Origin: Halanaerobium salsuginis
Lineage (GTDB): Bacteria > Bacillota > Halanaerobiia > Halanaerobiales > Halanaerobiaceae
Length of the DNA stretch: 64,000 nt
Reading direction: 5' to 3'
Assembly: GCF_900114545.1 (NCBI RefSeq)
Contig: NZ_FOTI01000007.1
Location: forward strand, 1 to 64,000
Below, in pieces: positions 3,411-39,218 of the stretch (position 1 is the first letter of the stretch; each line of letters starts with the position of its first letter). Below the pieces are notes generated by a model that saw only the letters and a list, made by a program, of their open reading frames with translations, was not told the DNA's origin and ran no database searches. The position numbers and the translations under genes are program-made.

Positions 3411-4409
3411 TTATTCTATTAAATTTGCTGCTATAATTCTAGAACCAATAACAGTAGAATATTCGCCCTGTCGATCACTAGCCTCAATTAAACTTAAATC
3501 AATCTTTAAATATTTTAATAAACAAAAAAACACTTTTTTTAATGGATTAGCACCTCCAATCATTATCCACTCTAAGACATTTTCTTTAAGTATATTTTCC
3601 ACTAAAAATTTAATATCTTCATGCATTATAACTCCTGTATAATAGTTTGCTAATTTATTTTTATTCAAATCACTAAAAATTTCTAATAACCTTACCTGAT
3701 AAAGTCCTCGTGTCACCCCATATTTTTCTGCTGCTTGATAGCCCTTAATCAAATTTTCTAGATCAAGACTAGTTATCAATTCTTGTGACAAAGAATTAGA
3801 CAATATTGACTCTTTCTGAATTGCAAGCAGTGCTTCTCCACCTAAAGTTGAAAAACACTTAGTTAATCTTTTTTGTTCATCAACTAGAATATATTTTGTG
3901 TGTGAACCAGGTAAAATCAATATCCCTTTACCATTTCTTGGCAGTTGATCTAATAAACCAATTGCCTCTACTTCTTCCCCTCTCATTATGTCATAATTAT
4001 TAATTTGTGAAACAATATCATTATTTGCTTTTACTGAATTTTTCATACCTGGAATTAAAATACACTTAATATCAAAAAAATCAGATATTTTTTTCATAAC
4101 TGCTGCTTGAGAAAAATCCTCAACAGATGCTGGACTACTAATGTGAGGGACTTCATATATTCCTAAATTAGAAGTTATCATACCAGAGGCTATAAGATAA
4201 TCTATTTCTGAACTAGATAAATTATTTTTAGCTATAATTTTTAGAATAGCTTCTCTTAAAGCTGTTATCAATTTATAGTTGTTACCATCTATAGCAGTGT
4301 TTCTTACCCCAATATTAACTTTTATAGAATCTAAAATAACCTGTTCTTCTAATTTTCCCAATCTAATTCTCGAATTAGTAGTTCCAGAATCAATAAATAT
4401 TATATTCAT
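3411..4409 (-). CDS. dgoK: 2-dehydro-3-deoxygalactonokinase
   Basis: DgoK-family sugar-acid kinase (332 aa), which phosphorylates 2-keto-3-deoxygalactonate at O6. The N-terminus NIIFIDSGTTNSRIRL is the phosphate-binding loop of the family, RGEEVEAIGLL and LPGSHTKYILVD are the conserved central blocks, and MIGGANPL near the C-terminus is the nucleotide-binding glycine motif. Together with the adjacent aldolase (11-base gap) it forms a complete two-step route from KDGal to pyruvate and glyceraldehyde 3-phosphate. No dehydratase that would make KDGal is present beside it. Confidence 0.88.
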   Translation of the reverse strand: MNIIFIDSGTTNSRIRLGKLEEQVILDSIKVNIGVRNTAIDGNNYKLITALREAILKIIAKNNLSSSEIDYLIASGMITSNLGIYEVPHISSPASVEDFSQAAVMKKISDFFDIKCILIPGMKNSVKANNDIVSQINNYDIMRGEEVEAIGLLDQLPRNGKGILILPGSHTKYILVDEQKRLTKCFSTLGGEALLAIQKESILSNSLSQELITSLDLENLIKGYQAAEKYGVTRGLYQVRLLEIFSDLNKNKLANYYTGVIMHEDIKFLVENILKENVLEWIMIGGANPLKKVFFCLLKYLKIDLSLIEASDRQGEYSTVIGSRIIAANLIE

Positions 4410-4420
4410 TGTTTACCCCT

Positions 4421-5065
4421 CTAATTGCTTTTATTATTTACTTTTTTGGCTAATTCAACAAACTTTTTACTGCGATTTTTTATTTCTAAAAAATTTTCTG
4501 TTTTAACTAGTTTATCATCAACAAGCGAACTTCCTATGCCCAGACAACAGCTTCCTTTTTGTAAAAATTCAGCAGCATTTTCTAATGAAATTCCTCCTAC
4601 CGCCATAATTTCTAAATTGGGTAGAGGTGCTTTTAAGTCCGAAATATAGCTGGGATGTAAATTCCTTGCAGGAAATAATTTTATTATTTCAGCGCCTAAA
4701 TTATGTGCTTCCATTGCTTCGCTCGGACTAAATACTCCCGGAATTAGTACTATATCGTTCTCAATCGCATATTTAAGAGCAGTTTTATTTAAAATTGGTG
4801 ATAATAAAAAACTTGCTCCACAAAGAGATGCTTTTTTTACGCTATCTTTGTCTAAAACAGTCCCTGCTCCTATACTCATATTGGGGAATTTTTTTCTGAT
4901 ATCTTTAATTAGTTTATAGGCATTATTAGTAGTTAAACTAACTTCAACAATTTTAATCCCCCCCTGATAAAGACTATCCATAATCTGATCTATTTTCTCA
5001 GGATAATTAGTTCTAATTATTGCTATTACTTTTTCTTTTTTGATTTTTTTAGCTACATTCTCCAT
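4421..5065 (-). CDS. dgoA: 2-dehydro-3-deoxy-6-phosphogalactonate/gluconate aldolase
   Basis: Class I KDPG/KDPGal aldolase (214 aa, normal length), splitting the 6-phospho-2-keto-3-deoxy acid into pyruvate and glyceraldehyde 3-phosphate. Visible signatures: KVIAIIRT at the start, MSIGAGTVLD in the middle, the Schiff-base lysine in EIIKLFPARN, and MAVGGISLENAAEF near the end. Sequence alone does not separate KDPG from KDPGal activity, but the partner kinase is of the DgoK type, so the galacto epimer is favoured. First gene of the operon, with a GGAGG site at about 5072-5077. Confidence 0.88.
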   Translation of the reverse strand: MENVAKKIKKEKVIAIIRTNYPEKIDQIMDSLYQGGIKIVEVSLTTNNAYKLIKDIRKKFPNMSIGAGTVLDKDSVKKASLCGASFLLSPILNKTALKYAIENDIVLIPGVFSPSEAMEAHNLGAEIIKLFPARNLHPSYISDLKAPLPNLEIMAVGGISLENAAEFLQKGSCCLGIGSSLVDDKLVKTENFLEIKNRSKKFVELAKKVNNKSN

Positions 5066-5090
5066 TAACTTTCCTCCTTTTCCTTATTAC

Positions 5091-5103
5091 GGAACTACGT
5101 TCC
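5091..5103. promoter_or_regulatory. Palindromic operator GGAACTACGTTCC
   Basis: GGAAC-TAC-GTTCC is a perfect 5-3-5 inverted repeat, 25 bases upstream of the aldolase ATG and just downstream of the expected transcription start. Position and symmetry suit a repressor roadblock site. The IclR-type regulator encoded immediately upstream (5236-6009) is the obvious candidate; assignment is inference. Confidence 0.6.
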
Positions 5104-5117
5104 TTTTCTATATATTA

Positions 5118-5146
5118 ATTTTAATTTCTTTTTTTCTATATGTCAA
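5118..5146 (-). promoter_or_regulatory. Promoter of the sugar-acid operon
   Basis: On the minus strand TTGACA (complement of 5141-5146), 17-base spacer, TAAAAT (complement of 5118-5123). Near-consensus sigma-A promoter firing into the aldolase-dgoK-tctCBA operon; the palindromic operator at 5091-5103 begins about 15 bases downstream of the -10 box. Confidence 0.75.
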
Positions 5147-5156
5147 GTAAATTTTC

Positions 5157-5193
5157 AAAAAAAAAAGATAATTCCCATTTTATTGGGAATTAC
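5157..5193 (-). terminator. Intrinsic terminator after the IclR gene
   Basis: Minus-strand hairpin with arms GGGAATT/AATTCCC (about 5171-5192), extended by further pairs, followed by a run of ten T (5157-5166). It separates the regulator transcript from the sugar-acid operon. Confidence 0.85.
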
Positions 5194-5235
5194 CTTAACA
5201 AATTAAGTATTTATTTTGTTTATCTCAAAACGTAG

Positions 5236-6009
5236 TTATTCTGCGACATATCCTAGCTTTTCAGAAGCTTTTTTACTTGCTTTAAGAACTTCATTAATTA
5301 TTATTTTGAATTTTTCTTCATCTAATCGCATTACCGGACTGGCTACACTAATACCAGCAACTACTTCTTTCTTATAATTTAGAATTGGAGCTGCAGCACA
5401 TTTTATTTTTAACTCATGCTCTTCATTATCAATTGCATAACCTCTATCCCTAATTTCCTCTAATTCCTGTAAAATTTCTGCTTTAGTTGTTAAAGTATTA
5501 TCTGTATATTTTATCAATTCTGTTTCAGCTAATACTTGCTTAATTTCATTTTCAGGCAGAAAAGCTAATACAGCTTTTCCAATCCCTGTACAGTACATTG
5601 GAGCACGTTTTCCAATATTAGAGAACATCCTTATTGTTTTTGAACTCTCTATTTTATCAATATAAAATATTTGATTTCTATTTTTGATAGCTAAATGTGC
5701 TGTTTCATCAGTAACTTCACCAAGCTCCTGTAAAAATGGATGCACAAGCTCCTGAATGTCCAATTTTCTAGAAACAATCTCTCCCAATTCTATAAATCTT
5801 AATCCTAAAAAATATTTTTTGTTTTCTGAATTCTGCTGAATAAAATCTGCTTTATATAATGACATCAATAATCTATGAACTGTACTTTTAGAAACGTTTA
5901 ATATATCAGATAATTCTGTAACTCCTATTCCATTTGGTCTATCTTTTACTATTTCAATAATTTTTAAAGCTCTATCCACTGATTGAACTGATTTTTTATT
6001 TTCTTTCAT
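5236..6009 (-). CDS. IclR-family transcriptional regulator (KdgR-like)
   Basis: 257-aa regulator with the IclR layout: winged helix-turn-helix in about residues 8-70 (VDRALKIIEIV, then GVTELSDILNVSKSTVHRLL), and a C-terminal effector domain (IFYIDKIESSKTIRMFSNIG, GIGKAVLAFLP, GYAIDNEEHELKIKCAAAPI). It sits directly upstream of the KDPGal/TctABC operon in the same orientation but is separated by a terminator, the usual position of a local regulator. It probably responds to a sugar acid such as KDG; that is by analogy with KdgR proteins. A ribosome binding site (GGAGGAATAATTT) precedes the ATG. Confidence 0.88.
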   Translation of the reverse strand: MKENKKSVQSVDRALKIIEIVKDRPNGIGVTELSDILNVSKSTVHRLLMSLYKADFIQQNSENKKYFLGLRFIELGEIVSRKLDIQELVHPFLQELGEVTDETAHLAIKNRNQIFYIDKIESSKTIRMFSNIGKRAPMYCTGIGKAVLAFLPENEIKQVLAETELIKYTDNTLTTKAEILQELEEIRDRGYAIDNEEHELKIKCAAAPILNYKKEVVAGISVASPVMRLDEEKFKIIINEVLKASKKASEKLGYVAE

Positions 6010-6083: not shown

Positions 6084-7487
6084 TTAAGCATGAATAGCTC
6101 CTAAACCAAGTTCAAGAGCTGCTTCATGGATTACTTCAGCAGTAGTTGGATGGGCATGAATTGTTGCTGCGATAGTCTGAAAAGTTAAACCTTCTTTAAC
6201 CGCCAGAGTTAGTTCAGCTATTAAATCACTGGCTGCAATTCCAATTATAGAAGCACCAATAATTTTGCCAGTACTTGCTTCAGCTAAAATCTTAATTTTA
6301 CCTTCGCGTGATCCCATTGCCATTACCTTACCACTGGCCGCAAAAGGAAAAGTTCCAACTTGATAAGCAATATTTCTGGCCTGGGCCTGGCTTTCAGTTA
6401 AGCCGACAGCAGCAACTTCCGGTTCAGTAAATACTGCTGCAGGAACAGCCTGATAATTCATAGTTTTTAGCTGATCATTGTTGCTAAGATTAGCTACAGC
6501 TACTAAAGCCTGCTCTGCAGCAACATGAGCCAACATATTTTTGCCAGTTACATCTCCAACTGCATAAATACCACTTATATTACTTTCCATTTTATTGTTT
6601 ACTTTAATTGCACCAGATTTTGTTAGCTCAATTCCTGCCTTCTCAGGAGCTAATCCAGCTAAATATGGTTTTCGTCCTACAGCAAGCAAAACTTGTTCAG
6701 CCTGTTTAGTCTGAACGCGCTCTTTTTTATCTTGATAACTAATTTGATAACCACTAGCTGATTTAACAATTTTAGTAACTAAAGCTCCAGTTTTAACTTT
6801 TATTTTTCTACGTCGGGCTGCTCTGTTCAGCTCGGTACTTATCTCAGAATCAAAATCAGGCAGAAGCTGATCAAGATACTCTAAAACTGTAACTTCAACT
6901 CCAAATTGGCTAAAAATGAAGGCAAATTCTAGCCCAATAACTCCCCCACCAATAATTAGCAAAGAATCTGGTAATTTAGTTAGGCTAAGTAATGATTTAC
7001 TATTTAATATACCAGGCAAATCTGAACCACATATGCTGGGAATAACAGGCTGAGAACCAGTAGCAATAATAATTTTATCTGCTCTAATTTGAACTGTTTC
7101 TGCAGCAGTTTTAACTTTTATTTTTTCTGCTGTAATAAAACTGGCTTCACCATTAATTCTCTCTACTTCAGCTTTCTTGAGTAAATAATCAATTCCTTTG
7201 ACTAACCTTTGCACAATTTTATCTTTGCGGGCTAGAACAGCAGGGAAATCAAGCTCTGCTGTTTTAACTTTAACTCCATAATCAGCAGCAGACTGGGCCT
7301 CAGTAAAAACTTGAGCTGACCGAACATAGGCCTTTGTTGGGATACAGCCCCAATTTAGGCAAGTACCTCCTAGAGAATCTTTCTCAATTAAAACTGTTTT
7401 AAGGCCATGCTTAGCAGCCTGGAGAGCGGCTGTATAGCCTCCAGGTCCACTACCTATAATAGCAAGCTGATAGCTTTTTTCTTCCAT
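6084..7487 (-). CDS. lpdA: Dihydrolipoyl dehydrogenase
   Basis: 467-aa FAD-dependent disulfide oxidoreductase that reoxidises dihydrolipoyl groups with NAD+. It carries the FAD motif GSGPGG (residues 12-17), the redox disulfide C43-x4-C48 in GGTCLNWGCIPTK, an NAD-binding GGGVIGLEFA, the second FAD contact AVGDVTG and the catalytic His/Glu in HAHPTTAEVIHEA. It has no fused lipoyl domain, and no 2-oxo acid dehydrogenase or glycine-cleavage gene is nearby. It is the last gene of the eight-gene operon, 33 bases after the CFA synthase gene, so its partner may be a process other than the classical complexes. Confidence 0.93.
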   Translation of the reverse strand: MEEKSYQLAIIGSGPGGYTAALQAAKHGLKTVLIEKDSLGGTCLNWGCIPTKAYVRSAQVFTEAQSAADYGVKVKTAELDFPAVLARKDKIVQRLVKGIDYLLKKAEVERINGEASFITAEKIKVKTAAETVQIRADKIIIATGSQPVIPSICGSDLPGILNSKSLLSLTKLPDSLLIIGGGVIGLEFAFIFSQFGVEVTVLEYLDQLLPDFDSEISTELNRAARRRKIKVKTGALVTKIVKSASGYQISYQDKKERVQTKQAEQVLLAVGRKPYLAGLAPEKAGIELTKSGAIKVNNKMESNISGIYAVGDVTGKNMLAHVAAEQALVAVANLSNNDQLKTMNYQAVPAAVFTEPEVAAVGLTESQAQARNIAYQVGTFPFAASGKVMAMGSREGKIKILAEASTGKIIGASIIGIAASDLIAELTLAVKEGLTFQTIAATIHAHPTTAEVIHEAALELGLGAIHA

Positions 7488-7520
7488 TTATAAACCCCTT
7501 TATATTATCCATTTATAAAT

Positions 7521-8720
7521 TTAGTCACGATAGATGTACTCTCTGGTTAAAGGAAATTCAACATTTTTACCTTTTGAAAATAATACTTGATGAACAGATG
7601 TTTCTGCATAACGAAAAGTAAACACTACTCCCATTAAAAATGTCCGCCACATCCTGACAAAGTGCTCATCAAATTTTTCTCTAACCTGATCAGTTACTTC
7701 CTCAAAATTCGCAAGCCATTTTTCAGCAGTTAATGAATAATGATATCCTATGTCTTCTGCATCTAAAAGATGAAAGGAATGTTCAGGTAATTCCCAGACT
7801 ATTTCTCGTAAAGAAGGAATATAACCCCAGGGGAAAATATACTTTTGCAGCCAGGGATGGGCAGGCTGTTCTTTTAAGTGAGTTATCGAATGAACTAAAG
7901 ACAAACCACCCTGCTTTAATAACAGATTAACATTCGCAAAATATTCAGGAATATTTTCTTTGCCAACATGTTCGAACATACCTACACTAACAATCTTGTC
8001 AAATTTAAGATCTTCCCGGGCCAATTCTCGATAATCCTGCCTTCTAATTTCAATTTTTGCTTTCAAGTCTCTAGCAGCTACTCTTTTTTTAGCTTCGATC
8101 TCCTGCTCCTTGCTCAAAGTAACTCCCATTACTTCTACTCCATACTGCTCTGCTGCTCTAATTGCCAGTGCTCCCCAGCCACAGCCAATGTCAAGTAGTT
8201 TTTCACCTGGCTGTAAATTCAATTTTTTTAATACATGATCAATCTTTTGCAGCTGTGCCTGTTTTAAAGTATCCTGCTTGGTTTTAAAATAAGCACAAGA
8301 ATAAGTCATTGTTTCATCCTGCCACAGTTTAAAAAAGTCATTACCAATATCATAGTGTTTACGAACTCCTGCTTCTTCTTCAGCAGGTGATGATGATTTT
8401 TGGAATGGTAAAATTTTAGCTATTTTATACTTACCAATTTCTTCTTTCAAAGCCAACATATTATTACCTGCTGTTTCAATTAAACTAGGCAAAGATCCCG
8501 CAAATTCTATTTGGCCATCCATATATGCTTCAGCCATTTTTAGCTGAGGACTTTTTCTAATCTCATTAAGATCAAGCTTTTCCTTAAAAGTTAACTTAAA
8601 AGCTACCTCATCTGACAAGTCTTTATTAAAAGTCTGCTCCTCTCCATCCCAATACTCGACTGCAAATTTCTCACCTTTTACCCTTTTAAAAATTGCATTT
8701 AAAATCTTCTTAGTTAACAT
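7521..8720 (-). CDS. cfa: Cyclopropane-fatty-acyl-phospholipid synthase
   Basis: 399-aa SAM-dependent enzyme of the CFA synthase family, which adds a methylene to double bonds of membrane phospholipid acyl chains. N-terminal lipid-binding region (residues 1-110), then HYDIGNDFF, the active-site DETMTYSCAYF block, the SAM-binding LLDIGCGWGALAIRAAE, VSVGMFEHVG and the C-terminal RMWRTFLMGVVFTFRY. All expected blocks are present, so it looks active. Neighbours are an ABC importer upstream and lpdA downstream in one transcription unit; that context is unusual for cfa. Confidence 0.92.
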   Translation of the reverse strand: MLTKKILNAIFKRVKGEKFAVEYWDGEEQTFNKDLSDEVAFKLTFKEKLDLNEIRKSPQLKMAEAYMDGQIEFAGSLPSLIETAGNNMLALKEEIGKYKIAKILPFQKSSSPAEEEAGVRKHYDIGNDFFKLWQDETMTYSCAYFKTKQDTLKQAQLQKIDHVLKKLNLQPGEKLLDIGCGWGALAIRAAEQYGVEVMGVTLSKEQEIEAKKRVAARDLKAKIEIRRQDYRELAREDLKFDKIVSVGMFEHVGKENIPEYFANVNLLLKQGGLSLVHSITHLKEQPAHPWLQKYIFPWGYIPSLREIVWELPEHSFHLLDAEDIGYHYSLTAEKWLANFEEVTDQVREKFDEHFVRMWRTFLMGVVFTFRYAETSVHQVLFSKGKNVEFPLTREYIYRD

Positions 8721-8741
8721 TTTTTACCTCCTTAATTGAAC

Positions 8742-9518
8742 TTAAAACAATTCTTTTAAATTATCTAATTGATAATTTGTTTGGTCAACAAGGTCTGTAA
8801 ATTCATCGATTATCTCTTCTAAGTAAGTAGAAATTTGGGGACTAGATATTTTGCGGCTAGAACGTGGTATGTTAATAACTATTTCTTTAGTAATACCCTG
8901 CTCTTTAGCTAAAAAATAAATTCTATCTGCCAGCAAAAGGGCAGCTTCTGGGTCGTGAGTAATTAAAAAGAGAGTGGTCTTACTCTGCTGCTGAATAACA
9001 TCTAATAGCTGTCGCAAATTAAATTTAGTTTGTAAATCAAGTGATTTAAAGGGCTCATCTAAAAAAACAAGATCTGGTTTAACTGCAAAAGCTCTAATCA
9101 ATTCCAGTCTTTGCTGCATCCCTCCTGATAATTGGGCAGGAAAAGCTTTTCTAAATCCTGCTAAATCAGCTATTTCAAAAAGTAAATCTCTTAACTTCTT
9201 TTCTTTGCTCAAACCATAATTTTTTTGTACAAAAAGCAAATTTTCTTCTGCAGTCTGCCAGGGCAGAAGTCTTGGTGATTGAAAAACATAAGCAAAACGG
9301 GGGTCACCATTTTTAATGACCTGGCCAAAATCAGGTCTTGCTAAGCTAGAAGCAATCCTCATTAAAGTTGTTTTTCCACTACCAGAATGTCCCAACAGAC
9401 AAGTTACTTCTCTCTGATAAATCTTAAGATCAACTTCTTTTAAAACAGCTAGTTTGCCATAACTTTTTGAAATACTCCTTAATTCAATTATTGGTTTAGA
9501 AATTTGATCTTTAAACAT
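8742..9518 (-). CDS. ABC transporter ATPase, NitT/TauT type
   Basis: 258-aa nucleotide-binding subunit. Walker A GHSGSGKT at residues 43-50, a Q-loop in YVFQSPRLLPWQTAEENL, signature LSGGMQQRLELIRAF and Walker B LVFLDEPFKSLD, all as in SsuB/TauB/NrtD proteins. I set the start at the ATG preceded by AGGTGG at about 9522; a TTG 15 bases further out is in frame but has no ribosome binding site. The 3' end of the permease gene is overlapped slightly, indicating translational coupling with the rest of the importer. Confidence 0.9.
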   Translation of the reverse strand: MFKDQISKPIIELRSISKSYGKLAVLKEVDLKIYQREVTCLLGHSGSGKTTLMRIASSLARPDFGQVIKNGDPRFAYVFQSPRLLPWQTAEENLLFVQKNYGLSKEKKLRDLLFEIADLAGFRKAFPAQLSGGMQQRLELIRAFAVKPDLVFLDEPFKSLDLQTKFNLRQLLDVIQQQSKTTLFLITHDPEAALLLADRIYFLAKEQGITKEIVINIPRSSRKISSPQISTYLEEIIDEFTDLVDQTNYQLDNLKELF

Positions 9519-10263
9519 TTTTCCACCTGCCAACTCTAGCTTTAAGTTTTTCTAATAAATAATATTCAACAAAAAGCATAAATAAAATCAAAATAATTGT
9601 CCAGGCAAATAAACGATCTGTAGCCAGCATTGAATTAGCAAGACTTAGCTGATAACCAATTCCGCTAGAAGAAGCAATAAATTCAGCAAAAACGGAGGCC
9701 TTCCAGGCAAAAGCAAAGGCTATACTTAAAGCAGATACAAGAGCTGGCAATAATGATGGTAAATAAATAGCTTTAATTATTCTAATTTCTGGAGTTGAAT
9801 AGGCCCGGGCCATCTCCACCAATTCTTCATCAATATCTGTTAATCCCTGATATAGATTTACAAAAATAACTGGCAAGGAAACTATAAAAATCAAAAAAAT
9901 TGGAGTCAAATTATCAGCTACACCAAACCAGACTACTGCCAGCGAGGCCCAGACAACTGGTGGAGTAGCCTGAATGATTGTTAAAAAGGGCCGCAAAGTT
10001 TGCTCTAGTAATTTGAATCTATAAAGTAATAAGGCAAGTATAATGCCAAAAAGAACAGCTAATAAATATGCAGCTAATGTCCTCTCAATAGTAATTAAAA
10101 AGCTCTGCCATAAAACTCCAGAGCTGGCTAGCTGCTTTAAAGCCTGAGCTACTTCCTGAACTGAAGGAAGAACAAGACTATTTACCCTGCTGGCTGCTTT
10201 AATCCAAATAAATATTAAAAAAGCTAACAACAGCCAGAAAGGCTTAATAATAAAATTCTTCAT
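9511..10263 (-). CDS. ABC transporter permease, NitT/TauT type
   Basis: 250-aa membrane subunit with about six transmembrane segments and the family's EAA loop (EMARAYSTPEIRIIKAIYLP). Blocks TIERTLAAYLLAVLFGI and AFAFAWKASVFAEFIA match SsuC/TauC permeases. Start taken at the ATG after GGGTGG; a GTG at 10276-10278 is a less likely alternative. The start overlaps the 3' end of the binding-protein gene and its own 3' end overlaps the ATPase start, so the three genes form a tight cassette. Confidence 0.9.
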   Translation of the reverse strand: MKNFIIKPFWLLLAFLIFIWIKAASRVNSLVLPSVQEVAQALKQLASSGVLWQSFLITIERTLAAYLLAVLFGIILALLLYRFKLLEQTLRPFLTIIQATPPVVWASLAVVWFGVADNLTPIFLIFIVSLPVIFVNLYQGLTDIDEELVEMARAYSTPEIRIIKAIYLPSLLPALVSALSIAFAFAWKASVFAEFIASSSGIGYQLSLANSMLATDRLFAWTIILILFMLFVEYYLLEKLKARVGRWKNV

Positions 10264-11191
10264 CCGGTAAACTGCCACCCAATAACTCAGGATTAAAGTT
10301 TAACATTTTGGAGAAATAAAAATCAGTTAAATTTTTACTTTCAGCGGCAGGATAAATATTTAAATTAACTCTAGTGAGAGATTTTTTTAAAATAGACTCC
10401 GGTAGAGAAAAGTTCTCTGCAGCCAGCTTTGCTGCTGCATCTGGATGCTGATTAACCCAGATAATTCCTTTTTTATAATAACTATTAATAATTGCAGTAA
10501 ATTGTGGATTTTCTGCTGCAAAATCACTATTAACAAAAAGTGCAACAAAAGGAATCCGCTCATCATTATTTAGCCTGGCCCATTCTTGCTGGATATCCAT
10601 AACCAGCTTCGCCTGTTTATTTTTAGCCAGACTAACAGTAACTAAAGGTTCCGGCAAAAATATAGCATCTAATTTACCAGCCATAAACAATTTAGCACTG
10701 CCAGGCAGAGCCCGATAAACAAAATTAACTTTTGTCAGATCAGCTCCATTATTTTTTAATAGATAACGAGCCAAAAAGTCTAATGGACCACCTTTTAAAG
10801 GTAAAGCAAGCGACTTACCTTCTAAATCCTGCCAGGTATTTATCTCAAGGCCATTACTAAGTAAGTAATCAATCCCCCAGGTGTTAACATTTAATAATTT
10901 AAGCTTAACTCCTCGATTATAAGCATTAGCGCCTACATTACTACCAGTAATTAAAAAATTAATTTCATTTTGGGCCAGCAGTGATATACCTCGTTGATGC
11001 TCAGACGAAAGCTGAACATCTAAATTCAAAGCAGCTGGTAAATTGTTCTCCTGCTGCATCCATAAAAAAGGCAGTGCTGCCGGAATAGAAGGAGTTTGTA
11101 TTTTAACATCAAGTGCAGCAGCAGTTTGCCCAAAACTAAATCCAATTAAAAAAATCAAAGTAATAATTATTATTTTGCGTGCTAGTTTCAA
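10244..11191 (-). CDS. ABC transporter substrate-binding protein, NitT/TauT (NMT1) type
   Basis: 315-aa extracytoplasmic receptor with a non-lipoprotein signal peptide (cleavage probably after the AAA near residue 26). The fold family shows in IPAALPFLWMQQEN, NVGANAYNRGVKLKLLNV, the LEGKSLALPLKGGPLDFLARY region and FMAGKLDAIFLPEPLV, as in SsuA, NrtA and ThiY receptors. These proteins bind sulfonates, nitrate, pyrimidines and other small ligands, so the substrate cannot be assigned. It lies between the SUF-like genes and its own permease and ATPase genes, and its C-terminus overlaps the permease start. Confidence 0.88.
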   Translation of the reverse strand: MKLARKIIIITLIFLIGFSFGQTAAALDVKIQTPSIPAALPFLWMQQENNLPAALNLDVQLSSEHQRGISLLAQNEINFLITGSNVGANAYNRGVKLKLLNVNTWGIDYLLSNGLEINTWQDLEGKSLALPLKGGPLDFLARYLLKNNGADLTKVNFVYRALPGSAKLFMAGKLDAIFLPEPLVTVSLAKNKQAKLVMDIQQEWARLNNDERIPFVALFVNSDFAAENPQFTAIINSYYKKGIIWVNQHPDAAAKLAAENFSLPESILKKSLTRVNLNIYPAAESKNLTDFYFSKMLNFNPELLGGSLPDEEFYY

Positions 11192-11221
11192 ACTTTTTTT
11201 CCTCCTTTAATTTAAAATTTA

Positions 11222-12160
11222 CTAATCATTTAATAAACCTTGAATAATTACATCAGCAGCAGCTTCTTCATCAAGCCCCCGGGCCATCAGAGTTTGCAGC
11301 TGTGTACTATCAACACTTCCAATAGCAGCTTCGTGAGTTATCTTTGCTTCTGGATGACGCACATCAACAATTGGAACTGCTCTAGCAATTGCCTGATCTT
11401 TAATGATTTCTGTACAGTCAACATGCCCCATTGCCCCAGCAGCGTCTGCTGTTAACTCATTATAAATATCTGCTCTTGCATTTTCTTTTAGAGCAATTTT
11501 AGAATCTAATATTCCTCTTGCATCTTTGCCCTGAAGATGAGCAGCTTCTCTAATTTTAACCTGATCATCTGCCTGGGCACTGATTCTAGCTAGCATTTCT
11601 ACAGTAGCAGCTTCTGCAATAACTGCTTCATAATCAAAATCAATCTTACCTACTCTACCTTTAAGTAGATCAAATTTAGTTACCAGCTGGCCCCGGGCAG
11701 CTAGATTAATATCAGATTTAGCAATCACTTCAACTCCACCATGATCACCATGAAAATGATGTTCTTTATAAATATAGCTGCCCCCTTCTTCTATTTCAAT
11801 TACTGCATCCATAATATGTTGAACCTGAACAGCATTTGGGAAAACACAATCTGCTCTTACTTCTACAGCAGCATTTTTTTCTATTTTAACTACCATGTCT
11901 ATCTGCTGACGCCCTTCTTTAGGTAAAACTCCAAAACACATATGGACTGGATTTTTAATTTTATAACCTGCTTTTACAGTAATTTTAACCTTTACAGCTC
12001 CAGGACTAATTTTGTCTGCCTCTACTTTCAGACCCTCTACACCATGTTTACCTAATACCTGATCTCTTTCTAAAACCAGATGAGCAACTTCACTATCAGC
12101 AAAAATATCTTCTCCTCCAGCTGACTTATAAGCATCTACCATCATTTGATAATCATTCAT
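11222..12160 (-). CDS. SufB/SufD-family Fe-S scaffold protein, short (SmsB-like)
   Basis: 312-aa single SufB/D beta-helix protein, much shorter than classical SufB (about 470 aa) and similar in size to the minimal SUF scaffold called SufB2 or SmsB. The C-terminal core carries a cysteine in GHVDCTEIIKD and a histidine in EAKITHEAAIGSVD, at the places where SufB/SufD residues bind the nascent cluster, so it may be functional. The start is the ATG that overlaps the sufC stop as TAATG; the GGAGG inside the end of sufC is its ribosome binding site. No sufS, sufU or classical sufB is adjacent. A role in Fe-S cluster handling is likely by family. Confidence 0.85.
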   Translation of the reverse strand: MNDYQMMVDAYKSAGGEDIFADSEVAHLVLERDQVLGKHGVEGLKVEADKISPGAVKVKITVKAGYKIKNPVHMCFGVLPKEGRQQIDMVVKIEKNAAVEVRADCVFPNAVQVQHIMDAVIEIEEGGSYIYKEHHFHGDHGGVEVIAKSDINLAARGQLVTKFDLLKGRVGKIDFDYEAVIAEAATVEMLARISAQADDQVKIREAAHLQGKDARGILDSKIALKENARADIYNELTADAAGAMGHVDCTEIIKDQAIARAVPIVDVRHPEAKITHEAAIGSVDSTQLQTLMARGLDEEAAADVIIQGLLND

Positions 12161-12909
12161 TAGCTGGCTGCCTCCTTTTCGCAATCTTCTGCTTTAGCAC
12201 AGGGAAAACAAAATGATTTAAAATAATCGCTAATTGCAGATGGCGCACCTTCTCTAATTATTTCACCAGCACAAACAAGTGCAGCCCGATCAGCATATTC
12301 TAACATTTCTTCTGAATGAGTGATCAATAAAATTCCACTACCTGATTTTTTGAAATAGTTAATTACATTAGCAATATTATTTAGAGCTACAATATCAACT
12401 CCAGAATCAGGTTCATCTAAAATAATGCATTCTGGTTCCATCAAGATTAAAGAAGCCAGTTCAATACGTTTCCTTTCGCCTCCGCTTAAACTGCGGTCAA
12501 CAAAACGATCTAAATACTGAGCTGGATTAATTGCAACCTGATCCAGTGCTTCTCTGAGTTTATTTTCTGTAACTTCTTTATCCCTGCTTTTAAGTCCCAA
12601 TGATAAAAATTCTCTTACAGTAACCCCCTGATAACGCGCTGGTTCCTGCCAGGCCAGAGTAATTCCCCGCTGAGCTCTTTGATTAATCTTTAAATCATTA
12701 ATTTTTTCACCTTTAAAGATCATCTCACCTGATTGAGGTTGATAATTATTAAGTCCCATTAAAGTATAGGCAAAAGTAGATTTGCCACAGCCATTCGGAC
12801 CTATTAAAGCAAAAACTTCCCCTTTGGCCAGAGAAAATTCCATTCCCCTTAAAATTTCTGCTTCATTTATCTTAAGATGTAGATCCTTAATTTCCAGTAG
12901 TTTTGACAT
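12160..12909 (-). CDS. sufC: SufC-like ATPase
   Basis: 249-aa cytosolic ABC-type ATPase of the SufC family: Walker A GPNGCGKS at residues 37-44, signature SGGERKRIELASL and Walker B CIILDEPDSGVD. It should pair with the downstream SufB/D-like protein to form a minimal scaffold complex. An oddity is the C-terminal tail FCFPCAKAEDCEKEAAS, with a C-x2-C-x5-C cluster I do not associate with classical SufC. The gene ends in a one-base overlap with the scaffold gene, so the pair is translationally coupled. Confidence 0.88.
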   Translation of the reverse strand: MSKLLEIKDLHLKINEAEILRGMEFSLAKGEVFALIGPNGCGKSTFAYTLMGLNNYQPQSGEMIFKGEKINDLKINQRAQRGITLAWQEPARYQGVTVREFLSLGLKSRDKEVTENKLREALDQVAINPAQYLDRFVDRSLSGGERKRIELASLILMEPECIILDEPDSGVDIVALNNIANVINYFKKSGSGILLITHSEEMLEYADRAALVCAGEIIREGAPSAISDYFKSFCFPCAKAEDCEKEAAS

Positions 12910-12939
12910 AAAAAATCCCCCAATTTAACTTAATATAAT

Positions 12940-14163
12940 TTATTCCTGTCCTAAAAATTCATTTATTTTAGCAGCATGATGGCCCGGAATAATTAGATGA
13001 TGATTCCCAATTGCCTCATTTAAAAAATATTCTTCACTTTGTGGTAAAGATACTTTTAACTGAGTACGACAAGCATTAGCAGAATCTTGATTAGCTAAAA
13101 TCATTCCTTCAGCTACAAAATACTGCTCCAGACCAGCTCCACCAATTTTAAAAACTGTAACTGGTCCTTCAGCTAAAATACCCTGAATTCCAATTCCCAG
13201 ACCAGTTTCAAAATGATCTCTAATTATATATTCCTGGCTTAAATCTGTAGCAATTGTACAATGAGCAAATAAAATTTCTGCTTTTTCACTATCAATTGCG
13301 GCTGGATTAGCCATAAAAGATAACTCACCAGTTAAATGATAAGCAAAAAGCATAGAAAATAGAGCTGGAACATCTCCTTCACAACCTGCCATAATCCCTT
13401 CATTATTAAGTAATGATAAGGCAAGGCAGCCAGTAGTCTTTATTTTTTCTACTAAATCAAAACAGCGAACTGTCAGAGCAGTTAGCTGATTATTTTTAAT
13501 TACTATTTTCAAAGCTAAATAAATTTTAGCTGCAGCAATTAAATCCTCAGAACTGCTATCCAGCTGTTTAACTGCCTGCTCTTTAAAATTGACTGCAATT
13601 TGCTCAGCCTTATTTAGCTCAACTTTTTCTAAAGCTTGATAAACTTCCGTCAGTTCGATTTCTATAAATTCTGTCCCCCAATGATGGGTTGCATGTTCAT
13701 AATCAACCTGACTACCAATTAACCAATCAGATGGCTGACCAATTATTCCAATTCGATCATTAGCTATTTTTTCTCTAGCTCTTTTATACTCGGCTAATTG
13801 TTTAATTTCTTTTATTACCTTTGGCATTGAGCCATGTAAAATTTTAGCTGGAACACCTTCACTATTTAAAAAGCTTAAAATCTCTAAAGCAGCTGGCAGT
13901 GAATTATGCAGTTCTGTAGCCAGCAAATAAACTGGACTAGGTAAATAGGCTAAATTATCAGCTAATATTTGTTCAGAACCACCTGACTTAATAAAATTAA
14001 TAGTCAGGTCAACTTGACTGAAATTATATTCTGGCAGTTCAGCTACTGTTACCTCTTCCACCTCAAACTCATCCTCAAGCTGCTGATATTTAGCAGCCAG
14101 AGTTTGGTTGAGCCTGGCTTCAGAATGAACAGCTGATTTAATTGATACTAACGCAATTTTCAT
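12940..14163 (-). CDS. L-fucose/L-arabinose isomerase-like protein (COG2407 type)
   Basis: 407-aa protein resembling the fucose isomerase-related family. Visible are an N-terminal Rossmann-like part (MKIALVSIKSAVHSEARLN), the middle IGIIGQPSDWLIGSQVDY, the characteristic GCEGDVPALFSMLFAYHLTG around residue 260, and a C-terminal beta domain with a GNHHLIIPGHHAAKINEF end. The acidic residues in the GCEGD block are at the place where isomerases bind metal. No sugar pathway genes accompany it; instead it heads the SUF-like/ABC/CFA/Lpd operon, so a sugar isomerase role is doubtful. Head gene of the operon, 30 bases before sufC. Confidence 0.75.
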   Translation of the reverse strand: MKIALVSIKSAVHSEARLNQTLAAKYQQLEDEFEVEEVTVAELPEYNFSQVDLTINFIKSGGSEQILADNLAYLPSPVYLLATELHNSLPAALEILSFLNSEGVPAKILHGSMPKVIKEIKQLAEYKRAREKIANDRIGIIGQPSDWLIGSQVDYEHATHHWGTEFIEIELTEVYQALEKVELNKAEQIAVNFKEQAVKQLDSSSEDLIAAAKIYLALKIVIKNNQLTALTVRCFDLVEKIKTTGCLALSLLNNEGIMAGCEGDVPALFSMLFAYHLTGELSFMANPAAIDSEKAEILFAHCTIATDLSQEYIIRDHFETGLGIGIQGILAEGPVTVFKIGGAGLEQYFVAEGMILANQDSANACRTQLKVSLPQSEEYFLNEAIGNHHLIIPGHHAAKINEFLGQE

Positions 14164-14340
14164 TTTTTACCTCCACTTAAAAATATTATTTCTTAAGAAC
14201 TTCTAATTAGCTAAATTATCAGGTTATTTTTCGATTTATTTTTTAATTAAAAAAATTATTTAACAAATAATTTAAGCTATTTATAATTTAATTTGTCAAC
14301 TTAAAATATATCCTAAACTATATTATAATTAATAAAAGTC

Positions 14341-14358
14341 AACTTAGCAAACTAAGTT
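14341..14358. promoter_or_regulatory. Inverted repeat upstream of the eight-gene operon
   Basis: AACTTAG-CAAA-CTAAGTT is a perfect 7-base inverted repeat, about 180 bases upstream of the operon's first ATG. On the minus strand it abuts a TTGACT that could act as a -35 element (second TTGACA about 45 bases further downstream). It may be an operator; no regulator gene is adjacent. Confidence 0.4.
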
Positions 14359-14405: not shown

Positions 14406-14430
14406 GAAAAAAGCCACCAGAATGGGCGGC
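14406..14430 (-). terminator. Terminator of glgA
   Basis: Minus-strand GCCGCC/GGTGGC hairpin (one G-U pair, loop of six) followed by six T. Lies directly after the glgA stop and before the promoter region of the eight-gene operon. The remainder of 14164-14405 is very AT-rich and holds no gene. Confidence 0.8.
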
Positions 14431-14458
14431 CTTAAAGTTTATTTATTTAGTCGCCAAA

Positions 14459-16261
14459 TTAAAGAGTTATCAAATCAGAAATTTGCTTATATTTTTTCTT
14501 TCCAATTCCCTTAACCTTTTTTAAATCTGTTTTTTTATTAAAACCATTACTGCTAGCTGATCGATAAGCAACTATTCTTTCTGCATAAAAATCTCCAATC
14601 CCCGGCAGTAAAGCAAATTCCGCAGCTGTAGCTAAATTTATATTAACTAGCTGACCAGATTCTTTCTTCTTTTTAGTCCTCTTTAAATTAGTCTTCTCTG
14701 GTAGAGAATTTTTATTACTAAGAGGAGCTGGTTCCGGTTTAAAAACTTTAATTGCTGTTTTGTTTTTACTAAATCTACTAATTTTTTTTGAAACAGTAGA
14801 ACTTTTCTTTGCTGAAAGACTATCCATTAAATTTTTATATAAAGAAAGATACTTTTGGGCTGAGTTATGCCAACTATAATCAAGTTTCATTACTCGCTGT
14901 ACCAGATCATGCCAGAGGTCTTCATCCTGATAAAAATTAATTGCGCGTTCAATTGTGTGCAGCATATCATGAGCATTATAATTACTAAAGCTAAAACCTG
15001 TTCCAGCACCAGTTGCTTCATTATAAGAAAGCACAGTATCATTTAAGCCACCTGTTTCTCTTACAATTGGTAAAACTCCATAGCGAAAACTTATTAACTG
15101 ACTCAAACCACATGGCTCAAAACGAGAAGGCATTAAGAAAAGATCAATTCCTGCATAAATCTGACTAGCTAAATTTGAATTATAGTTAATGGTAACTGAT
15201 AGACTATCAGGATAATACTGCTGCTGATTTAAAAAGAATTTCTCATACTCAGGCTGACCAGTCCCTAAAACAACTAGCTGAGCTCCACTTTCCATAATCT
15301 GGGGAAAAACAGCTTTAATTAACTCAATTCCTTTTTGTTCAACCAGACGAGAAATAAATCCAATAATTGGTCTTTCCACATCTACTTCTAAACCCAATTT
15401 TTGCTGCAGATGAACTTTATTAGCTAATTTTTTGGTTACATCAGCTGCAGAATATGGCACAGCTATCTTTGAATCAGTTTCTGGATTAAATTTACTATAA
15501 CTAAGGCCATTAATAATTCCTGTTAAATCATCGCCTCTCATTCGCAGAGCATAATCAAGCCCTTCTCCAAAATAAGCAGTCTGGATCTCTTGGGCATAAG
15601 TTTCACTAACAGTAGTTAATTGATCTGCATACATGATAGCTGTTTTCATATAATTTAATAAGCCATTATGCCTTATTTTACCACTTGCCCAATGTTCCGG
15701 AGCAACTCCCAATACATCAGCTGCAATGTGACCGGAAAACTGACCCTGATAGCGAAGATTATGAATTGTAAATACTGTTTTAATATCACGATAAAAATTT
15801 TGCTGACGATAATGATCAGCCAACAAGAGTGGTAAAGGGCCTGTCTGCCAATCATTAAGATGAATAATATCAGGTTTAAAATTAAGCACTGGTAACATGT
15901 CAAGTACTGCCTGGCAAAAGAAAGCAAACTGTTCATGCCGATCTTCATTTTCATAGATAGAATCACGATCAAAATAATATTTATTATCAATAAAATAAAC
16001 TGGTACTCCCGATTCTGTCAGTTGATTAACCCCAAGATAAGTATCTCGCCAGGCTAACTGAGTTCTAAAATGACAGACAGACTGCATTTTTTCTTTATAA
16101 ACAGCTGGAATCTGGCTATACTGAGGAATTACAAGTCTTACGTCATGACCTGCTTCTCTTAAAGCCTGGGGTAACGAACCTGCTACATCAGCTAAGCCAC
16201 CAGTTTTTATAAAAGGATCAGCTTCTGAAGCAACAAATAGAATTTTCAATTTTTTTTGCAT
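14459..16261 (-). CDS. glgA: Glycogen synthase fused to a ComEA-like helix-hairpin-helix domain
   Basis: ADP-glucose-dependent starch/glycogen synthase, about 600 aa against the usual 475-480. Residues 1-480 are a complete GT5 enzyme: KTGGLADV near the N-terminus (ADP-glucose loop), NDWQTGPLPLLLADHY, TIHNLRYQGQFSG, GFISRLVEQKGIELI and SRFEPCGLSQLISFRYG. A lysine- and serine-rich linker follows, and the last 65 residues read VNINLATAAEFALLPGIGDF... then LKKVKGIGKKKYKQI, the paired helix-hairpin-helix motifs of ComEA-like DNA-binding proteins. I start at the ATG at 16261; the TTG six codons earlier lies on the GGAGG ribosome binding site itself. Divergent from glgBCD. Confidence 0.92.
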   Translation of the reverse strand: MQKKLKILFVASEADPFIKTGGLADVAGSLPQALREAGHDVRLVIPQYSQIPAVYKEKMQSVCHFRTQLAWRDTYLGVNQLTESGVPVYFIDNKYYFDRDSIYENEDRHEQFAFFCQAVLDMLPVLNFKPDIIHLNDWQTGPLPLLLADHYRQQNFYRDIKTVFTIHNLRYQGQFSGHIAADVLGVAPEHWASGKIRHNGLLNYMKTAIMYADQLTTVSETYAQEIQTAYFGEGLDYALRMRGDDLTGIINGLSYSKFNPETDSKIAVPYSAADVTKKLANKVHLQQKLGLEVDVERPIIGFISRLVEQKGIELIKAVFPQIMESGAQLVVLGTGQPEYEKFFLNQQQYYPDSLSVTINYNSNLASQIYAGIDLFLMPSRFEPCGLSQLISFRYGVLPIVRETGGLNDTVLSYNEATGAGTGFSFSNYNAHDMLHTIERAINFYQDEDLWHDLVQRVMKLDYSWHNSAQKYLSLYKNLMDSLSAKKSSTVSKKISRFSKNKTAIKVFKPEPAPLSNKNSLPEKTNLKRTKKKKESGQLVNINLATAAEFALLPGIGDFYAERIVAYRSASSNGFNKKTDLKKVKGIGKKKYKQISDLITL

Positions 16262-16310
16262 GGAGCCACCTCCTGGCAAACTTCAATTCAACTTTGATTC
16301 ACTTAACAAT

Positions 16311-39119: not shown

Positions 39120-39218
39120 TTCCTCCCATCCCGGTCATTTGATCCAGGTGGATCACCCAATTATATTTAACAGTCTAATGGGTACAGCTCTCAATTAAGG
39201 TTCCGTCCCAACTGTTAT
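39120..39218 (-). ncRNA. Structured 5' leader of the ECF gene (possible riboswitch)
   Basis: The transcript from the promoter at 39225-39253 should begin right before AACAGTTGGG, which pairs with CCCA...ACTGTT 35 bases later. A second hairpin TGATCC-ACCT-GGATCA follows, then ATGGGAGG, the ribosome binding site. The CCCAT of the first stem could instead pair with ATGGG of that site, giving two exclusive states. I could not match it to TPP, THF, preQ1, cobalamin or FMN consensus motifs. Confidence 0.5.

Follow-up and report, generated by a model that had tools for sequence, protein, structure and literature searches.

An iron-sulfur assembly pair, an ABC importer and dihydrolipoyl dehydrogenase in a conserved Halanaerobium operon with a possible role in lipoate acquisition

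Gene content of the operon

The 64,000-nucleotide stretch of Halanaerobium salsuginis DNA analysed here (contig NZ_FOTI01000007.1, positions 1 to 64,000, referred to as the window) carries an operon of eight minus-strand genes running from 14163 to 6084. They encode an isomerase-fold protein, which we call G1, the iron-sulfur (Fe-S) assembly proteins SmsC and SmsB, the binding protein, permease, and ATPase of an ATP-binding cassette (ABC) importer, a cyclopropane-fatty-acid (CFA) synthase, and a dihydrolipoyl dehydrogenase (Lpd) (Table 1). Halanaerobium species are salt-loving, fermenting bacteria, and relatives were surveyed in a sample of 38 genomes of the order Halanaerobiales, with genomes, families, and loci labelled G, f, and L, respectively.

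The gene families in the window were assigned with Pfam and NCBIfam models, which support every gene of the operon and place its products, among others, in the SufC family, the SUFBD core family, and the NMT1-type binding protein, permease, and ATPase families. Together with the coordinates, they bear out the gene order and the gaps of at most 33 bases described in the original prediction, the successive gaps being 30, -25, 30, -35, -23, 21, and 33 bases. The large overlap between SmsC and SmsB stems from a TTG start; relatives start at the ATG equivalent to position 12160, which leaves an overlap of 1 base. An internal terminator splitting the genes, which had been named as a possible sign against a common transcript, did not appear. 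The scan called as many terminators across the region as in shuffled sequences (8 versus 8.3), with no strong one between the operon genes, and a conserved promoter-like site precedes the first gene. The scan likewise found no terminator between Lpd and the following IclR gene, so read-through into the latter is possible. A search for palindromic operators returned a 7-base inverted repeat (AACTTAG-TTTG-CTAAGTT) upstream of the operon in the window, which is absent from the relatives.

Table 1. Features of the H. salsuginis operon and its upstream region
Feature	Position	Strand	Remarks
Terminator of preceding glgA	14410..14433	-	Parts glgA from the operon; relatives have a matching hairpin with a run of T after it
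Promoter-like site, TTGCTA-17-TATAAT	14322..14350	-	Upstream of operon; GTTTGCT...TATAAT arrangement recurs in the same-genus relatives examined
G1, FucI/AraA-fold protein, 407 aa	12940..14163	-	Family models, predicted structure, alignment
SmsC, ATPase of SUF-like minimal Fe-S system	12160..12909	-	Cysteine triad (C213, C234, C237); PDB match
SmsB, scaffold partner of SmsC	11222..12184	-	Likely true start ATG at 12160, giving 312 aa
NMT1-type periplasmic substrate-binding protein of importer	10244..11191	-	Family models, predicted fold, tree
Importer permease	9511..10278	-	Family models
Importer ATPase	8742..9533	-	Family models; probable ATG start near 9518
Cyclopropane-fatty-acid synthase	7521..8720	-	CMAS, 321 bits; lineage-specific insert, probably outside the core function
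Dihydrolipoyl dehydrogenase Lpd	6084..7487	-	Canonical CLNWGC disulfide and HPT..E pair

The SmsC and SmsB pair had been proposed as a novel minimal SUF, but judged from its sequence it is the already known SUF-like minimal system (SMS). The best PDB match of SmsC is MJ0035 (1.4e-83), with classical SufC following at 1.8e-42, and the best match of SmsB is MJ0034 (1.4e-61). SmsC2B2 of Methanocaldococcus jannaschii is an Fe-S biogenesis system that uses sulfide as its sulfur source and rescues Escherichia coli lacking both ISC and SUF under anoxic conditions, with C218, C239, and C242 of SmsC serving as [4Fe-4S] ligands (PMC12192291). The SmsC triad in the operon has the same C-x20-C-x2-C spacing and is preserved in every copy from the clusters. 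As in M. jannaschii, the two genes are adjacent and encode a short SmsB without SufD, and the operon contains neither SufS nor SufU. The cut-off of the NCBIfam SmsB model NF052511 was missed (72 of 650 bits), this being a narrow "exception" model with a length of 445, while the protein has about the length of MJ0034. The situation differs from M. jannaschii in that the pair lies inside a lipoate-linked operon and that contig C51 carries a complete SufCBDSU operon, making SMS an additional, accessory Fe-S system in this genome. The remark that there is no sufS, no classical sufB, and no lipoyl-using complex thus holds within the window but not for the genome, which besides SufCBDSU encodes GcvH on contig C4 (160 bits) and LplA on contig C81 (338 bits versus a cut-off of 280).

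Lpd scores 532 bits against TIGR01350 (cut-off, 409) and contains both the redox CxxxxC and the C-terminal HPTxxE motifs. G1 matches the AraA_central (1e-4) and SftI-like (1e-20) families, and its predicted structure, with a predicted local distance difference test score (pLDDT) of 92, resembles in Foldseek the L-arabinose isomerase AraA (4.6e-22) and the L-fucose isomerase FucI (3.8e-16). Residues E262, N286, H301, and H388 are invariant, at positions that we take to be metal ligands by analogy with FucI and AraA. The second of these positions is not acidic as in isomerases, being Asn286 in 76 of 76 aligned sequences versus Asp in 8 COG2407-type paralogues, suggesting that G1 is probably not an ordinary sugar isomerase. 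Relatives of G1 are encoded in at least 566 stretches of the genome collection, mostly without a common partner, and no shared partner was seen among 80 loci outside the Halanaerobiales (Bacteroides, Prevotella, Caldanaerobacter, Atribacteria, and others). The Atribacteria homologues (L084 and L127) lie between an apparent selA and a large ygfK-like gene.

Conservation of the gene cluster

G1 is present in 23 of the 38 Halanaerobiales genomes. It is clustered with SmsC-SmsB in 12 relatives, 11 of the same genus and one of another, and in all of them the order G1-SmsC-SmsB-binding protein-permease-ATPase is unchanged. The lack of a conserved neighbourhood, named beforehand as the outcome that would speak against a unit, was therefore not what we found. 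The eight-gene operon is real and conserved, with SMS, Lpd, and the importer type each being of known kinds, whereas the gene combination and the putative lipoate importer discussed below appear to be new as far as our literature searches go.

Downstream of the six genes, these 12 relatives carry Lpd (10), CFA synthase (6), a patatin-like hydrolase (8), a lysyl-phosphatidylglycerol-synthase-like gene (2), and an encapsulin shell gene (12), the last of which is also found downstream in G021, G026, and G001. Since only half of the relatives have the CFA gene, it is an insert in one Halanaerobium sub-lineage and probably lies outside the core function. In family f3, a distinct patatin-like protein about 30% identical to that of the Halanaerobium operons is encoded near LplA or the importer (L222, L231, L055, and L300). 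The fullest form of the cluster, with families confirmed by models, is found in G020 and reads G1-SmsC-SmsB-binding protein-permease-ATPase-Lpd-LplA-EncFtn-encapsulin. The two genes of the encapsulated ferritin system, EncFtn and family 1 encapsulin, lie directly downstream in most relatives but are missing at the operon end in the window genome, where an IclR/KdgR-like regulator, a KDPG-aldolase-like gene, and a sugar-acid-kinase-like gene follow instead (3411-6009, minus strand).

The upstream gene glgA is conserved as well, so conservation within the genus partly reflects general synteny and the evidence across families is weightier. The glycogen synthase GlgA (14459-16279, minus strand) is unusual in being fused at its C-terminal end to a ComEA-like helix-hairpin-helix domain (residues 542-605), and the sequences upstream of G1 suggest that the relatives keep it.

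The importer and its link to lipoate genes

Among named families, the binding protein and permease come nearest to the sulfonate or SaoX/SaoP types. The curated cut-offs for SsuA, TauA, SsuC, and TauC were not reached, with 72 of 163 bits for SsuA_fam and 97 of 347 bits for SsuC. The predicted structure of the binding protein (pLDDT 88) has as fold neighbours the sulfonate receptors SsuA and TauA, receptors for pyrroloquinoline quinone and for thiamine or its precursor, and Thi5. Thus, the importer shares its three-component architecture and fold with SsuABC, TauABC, SaoXPA, and the NMT1-type thiamine-pyrimidine importers, but it scores below the curated cut-offs, has other gene partners, and forms its own clade. 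In a tree of 69 binding proteins, the Halanaerobiales sequences group with those of a second bacterial class in a single, long-stemmed clade of 43 rows (support, 100/100). At one locus (L300 of G009), two binding proteins flank one permease-ATPase pair.

Given these relatives, the importer could take up an organosulfonate from which SMS would finally receive sulfide, with no cysteine desulfurase required, in keeping with the sulfide use of the M. jannaschii system (PMC12192291). We regard this as very unlikely, as the SsuA and TauA cut-offs are missed, no desulfonating enzyme was recognised in the clusters examined, and LplA and Lpd would be left unexplained.

The gene neighbourhood points instead to lipoate, a sulfur-containing cofactor. 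LplA (TIGR00545) is above the cut-off in 22 of the 38 genomes, and in 9 of the 17 genomes having both LplA and the importer the two lie within 10 kb of each other (G020, G021, G005, G006, G007, G008, G032, G033, and G037, from four families), which by our own estimate has a chance of about 1% per genome for genomes of 2 to 3 Mb. In a fifth family, LplA is found about 20 kb from the importer on a shared contig. Two arrangements occur: in f3, LplA precedes the binding protein gene, and in f1, f6, and f7 it lies downstream of Lpd. The LplA-linked importer clusters usually include Lpd too. Examples are SmsC-SmsB-binding protein-permease-ATPase-Lpd-LplA in G033, binding protein-permease-ATPase-Lpd-LplA-EncFtn-encapsulin in G021, and SmsC-SmsB-Lpd-LplA in G001.

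These genes could also be housekeeping neighbours that share no process and are held together by descent, which would agree with the conserved glgA, preceding Lpd-LplA in G026 as well, with the solitary G1 of Bacteroides and many other groups, and with the variable CFA, patatin-like, and lysyl-phosphatidylglycerol-synthase-like genes. We consider this quite unlikely, because LplA, Lpd, SMS, and the importer are linked across families in differing orders, indicating repeated rearrangement with the linkage kept.

The profile search of the contigs of the window genome gave no LipA match at all, and LipA is missing in 9 of the 17 genomes with LplA and the importer. With LplA and GcvH but no LipA, the window species should have to obtain its lipoate from outside, unless it uses another route such as the LipS1/S2 pathway (PMC10332631). 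By the presence of LplA and a lipoyl protein and the absence of LipA, its genome has the profile of a lipoate scavenger as far as the LipA route goes. LipT is described in the literature as an oxidoreductase of the LipS1/S2 route, and our search for literature on Halanaerobium lipoate and LipT found nothing relevant. Known lipoate scavenging relies on LplA together with Lpd and GcvH, and all three proteins are present here; the differences are the association with an ABC importer and SMS and the unlinked position of LplA in the window species.

The reading that we tentatively favour, and to which we give a nearly even chance, is that the operon is a module for the acquisition and use of lipoate, or of a lipoyl precursor, combined with a machinery of ancient origin for Fe-S assembly. 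Uptake of lipoate or of a closely related lipoyl precursor would be the task of the binding protein, permease, and ATPase, and LplA, encoded on another contig in the window species, would attach it to GcvH, as their families suggest. Re-oxidation of the lipoyl arm, established for the Lpd family, would be carried out by Lpd. SmsC2B2 may build [4Fe-4S] clusters for an Fe-S-rich fermentative and hydrogen metabolism, by analogy with its established role in M. jannaschii, while G1 would be a divergent isomerase-fold protein and CFA synthase a lineage-specific passenger. The original prediction had proposed one process, the import of a small ligand for Fe-S chemistry and a lipid or lipoyl modification. 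Of this, the unit, the import, and the Fe-S and lipoyl links (the latter through LplA in the relatives' clusters) are retained, but CFA synthase drops out as a core component.

Several observations weigh against lipoate as the cargo. The fold of the binding protein is common to several receptor types, so the structure cannot settle the cargo. Of seven relatives that retain the importer without LplA, five are same-genus genomes (G012 and G016-G019) that make lipoate with LipM-LipA and show no LplA above the cut-off, and two also lack a convincing GcvH or LipA. G009 (98% complete) has the permease, the ATPase, and two binding proteins, with LplA, GcvH, and LipA not found, and G004 likewise has the importer but neither LplA nor LipA nor any convincing GcvH, though its contig is short; the importer is therefore not restricted to genomes with lipoate-using proteins. 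Conversely, family f4 has LplA and GcvH without the importer. In G009 and G004, either the cargo is put to another use or it is not lipoate. Finally, the importers of the second class are tied to [FeFe]-hydrogenase genes and not to LplA.

The hydrogenase context and wider meaning

In the second class, importer genes directly follow hydrogenase genes in 13 genomes of two families. Loci with a same-clade importer right downstream of an [FeFe]-hydrogenase operon include L333, L334, L336, L338-L341, and L344, and in the one genome run against family models these genes encode NuoE-like and NuoF-like proteins and a group A6 [FeFe]-hydrogenase that depends on NADH. All 25 second-class genomes checked have GcvH and LplA/BirA-family genes, with or without the importer, so their co-occurrence there cannot discriminate. 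The maturation of [FeFe]-hydrogenase requires both the [4Fe-4S] cluster carried by HydF and aminomethyl-lipoyl-H-protein (PMC12752695), and a need for lipoyl-H-protein would offer one chemical reason for both the LplA and the hydrogenase contexts. The more specific proposal that a dedicated ABC importer for lipoate, or for a lipoyl precursor, supplies lipoyl-H-protein for hydrogen metabolism seems unlikely to us. Under it, a single genetic unit would cover the uptake of lipoate, the assembly of [4Fe-4S] clusters, and the maturation of hydrogenase, because the dithiomethylamine bridge of the H-cluster derives from aminomethyl-lipoyl-H-protein.

The same hydrogenase operons, being rich in Fe-S proteins, could be read as a sign of iron supply, as could the SMS pair inside the operon and the encapsulin gene downstream in all 12 clustered relatives and the three further genomes. 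The importer would then supply SMS with an iron chelate or some other source of iron or sulfur, the encapsulated ferritin would store iron, Lpd would be an NADH-linked reductase, and LplA would be incidental. However, LplA, a dedicated lipoate enzyme, is a repeated neighbour of the importer in four families, SMS does not adjoin many of the importer copies, and NMT1-type binding proteins are, to our knowledge, not classic iron importers, which makes this explanation rather unlikely.

The hydrogenase, like Lpd, could also be seen as a flavin user. Some fold relatives of the binding protein bind thiamine or its pyrimidine precursor, and two flavoenzymes, Lpd and the hydrogenase subunit resembling NuoF, adjoin the importer, so a vitamin precursor (thiamine pyrimidine or riboflavin) might be the cargo. 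This we hold to be highly improbable, since no thiamine or riboflavin gene was recognised in the clusters seen, and no thiamine pyrophosphate or flavin mononucleotide riboswitch exceeded the Rfam thresholds in the window or at the loci of eight relatives, nor does any other vitamin riboswitch precede the operon or lie in those eight loci. The scan matched a cyclic di-AMP type near one relative and, elsewhere in the window, a pan motif RNA (RF01749, 45.6 bits, 39122-39209, minus strand), a motif that typically sits upstream of pantothenate genes.

Returning to lipoate as the preferred cargo, our full-text literature search found no characterised bacterial ABC importer for it, and the importer clade described here, tied genetically to LplA in a conserved way, is a concrete candidate. 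If the lipoate reading is true, bacteria would have a named ABC importer dedicated to lipoate. The operon furthermore presents the ancient SMS as an accessory system in a bacterium with a full SUF, and it provides a genetic connection, open to testing, of lipoate supply with Fe-S assembly and the maturation of [FeFe]-hydrogenase.

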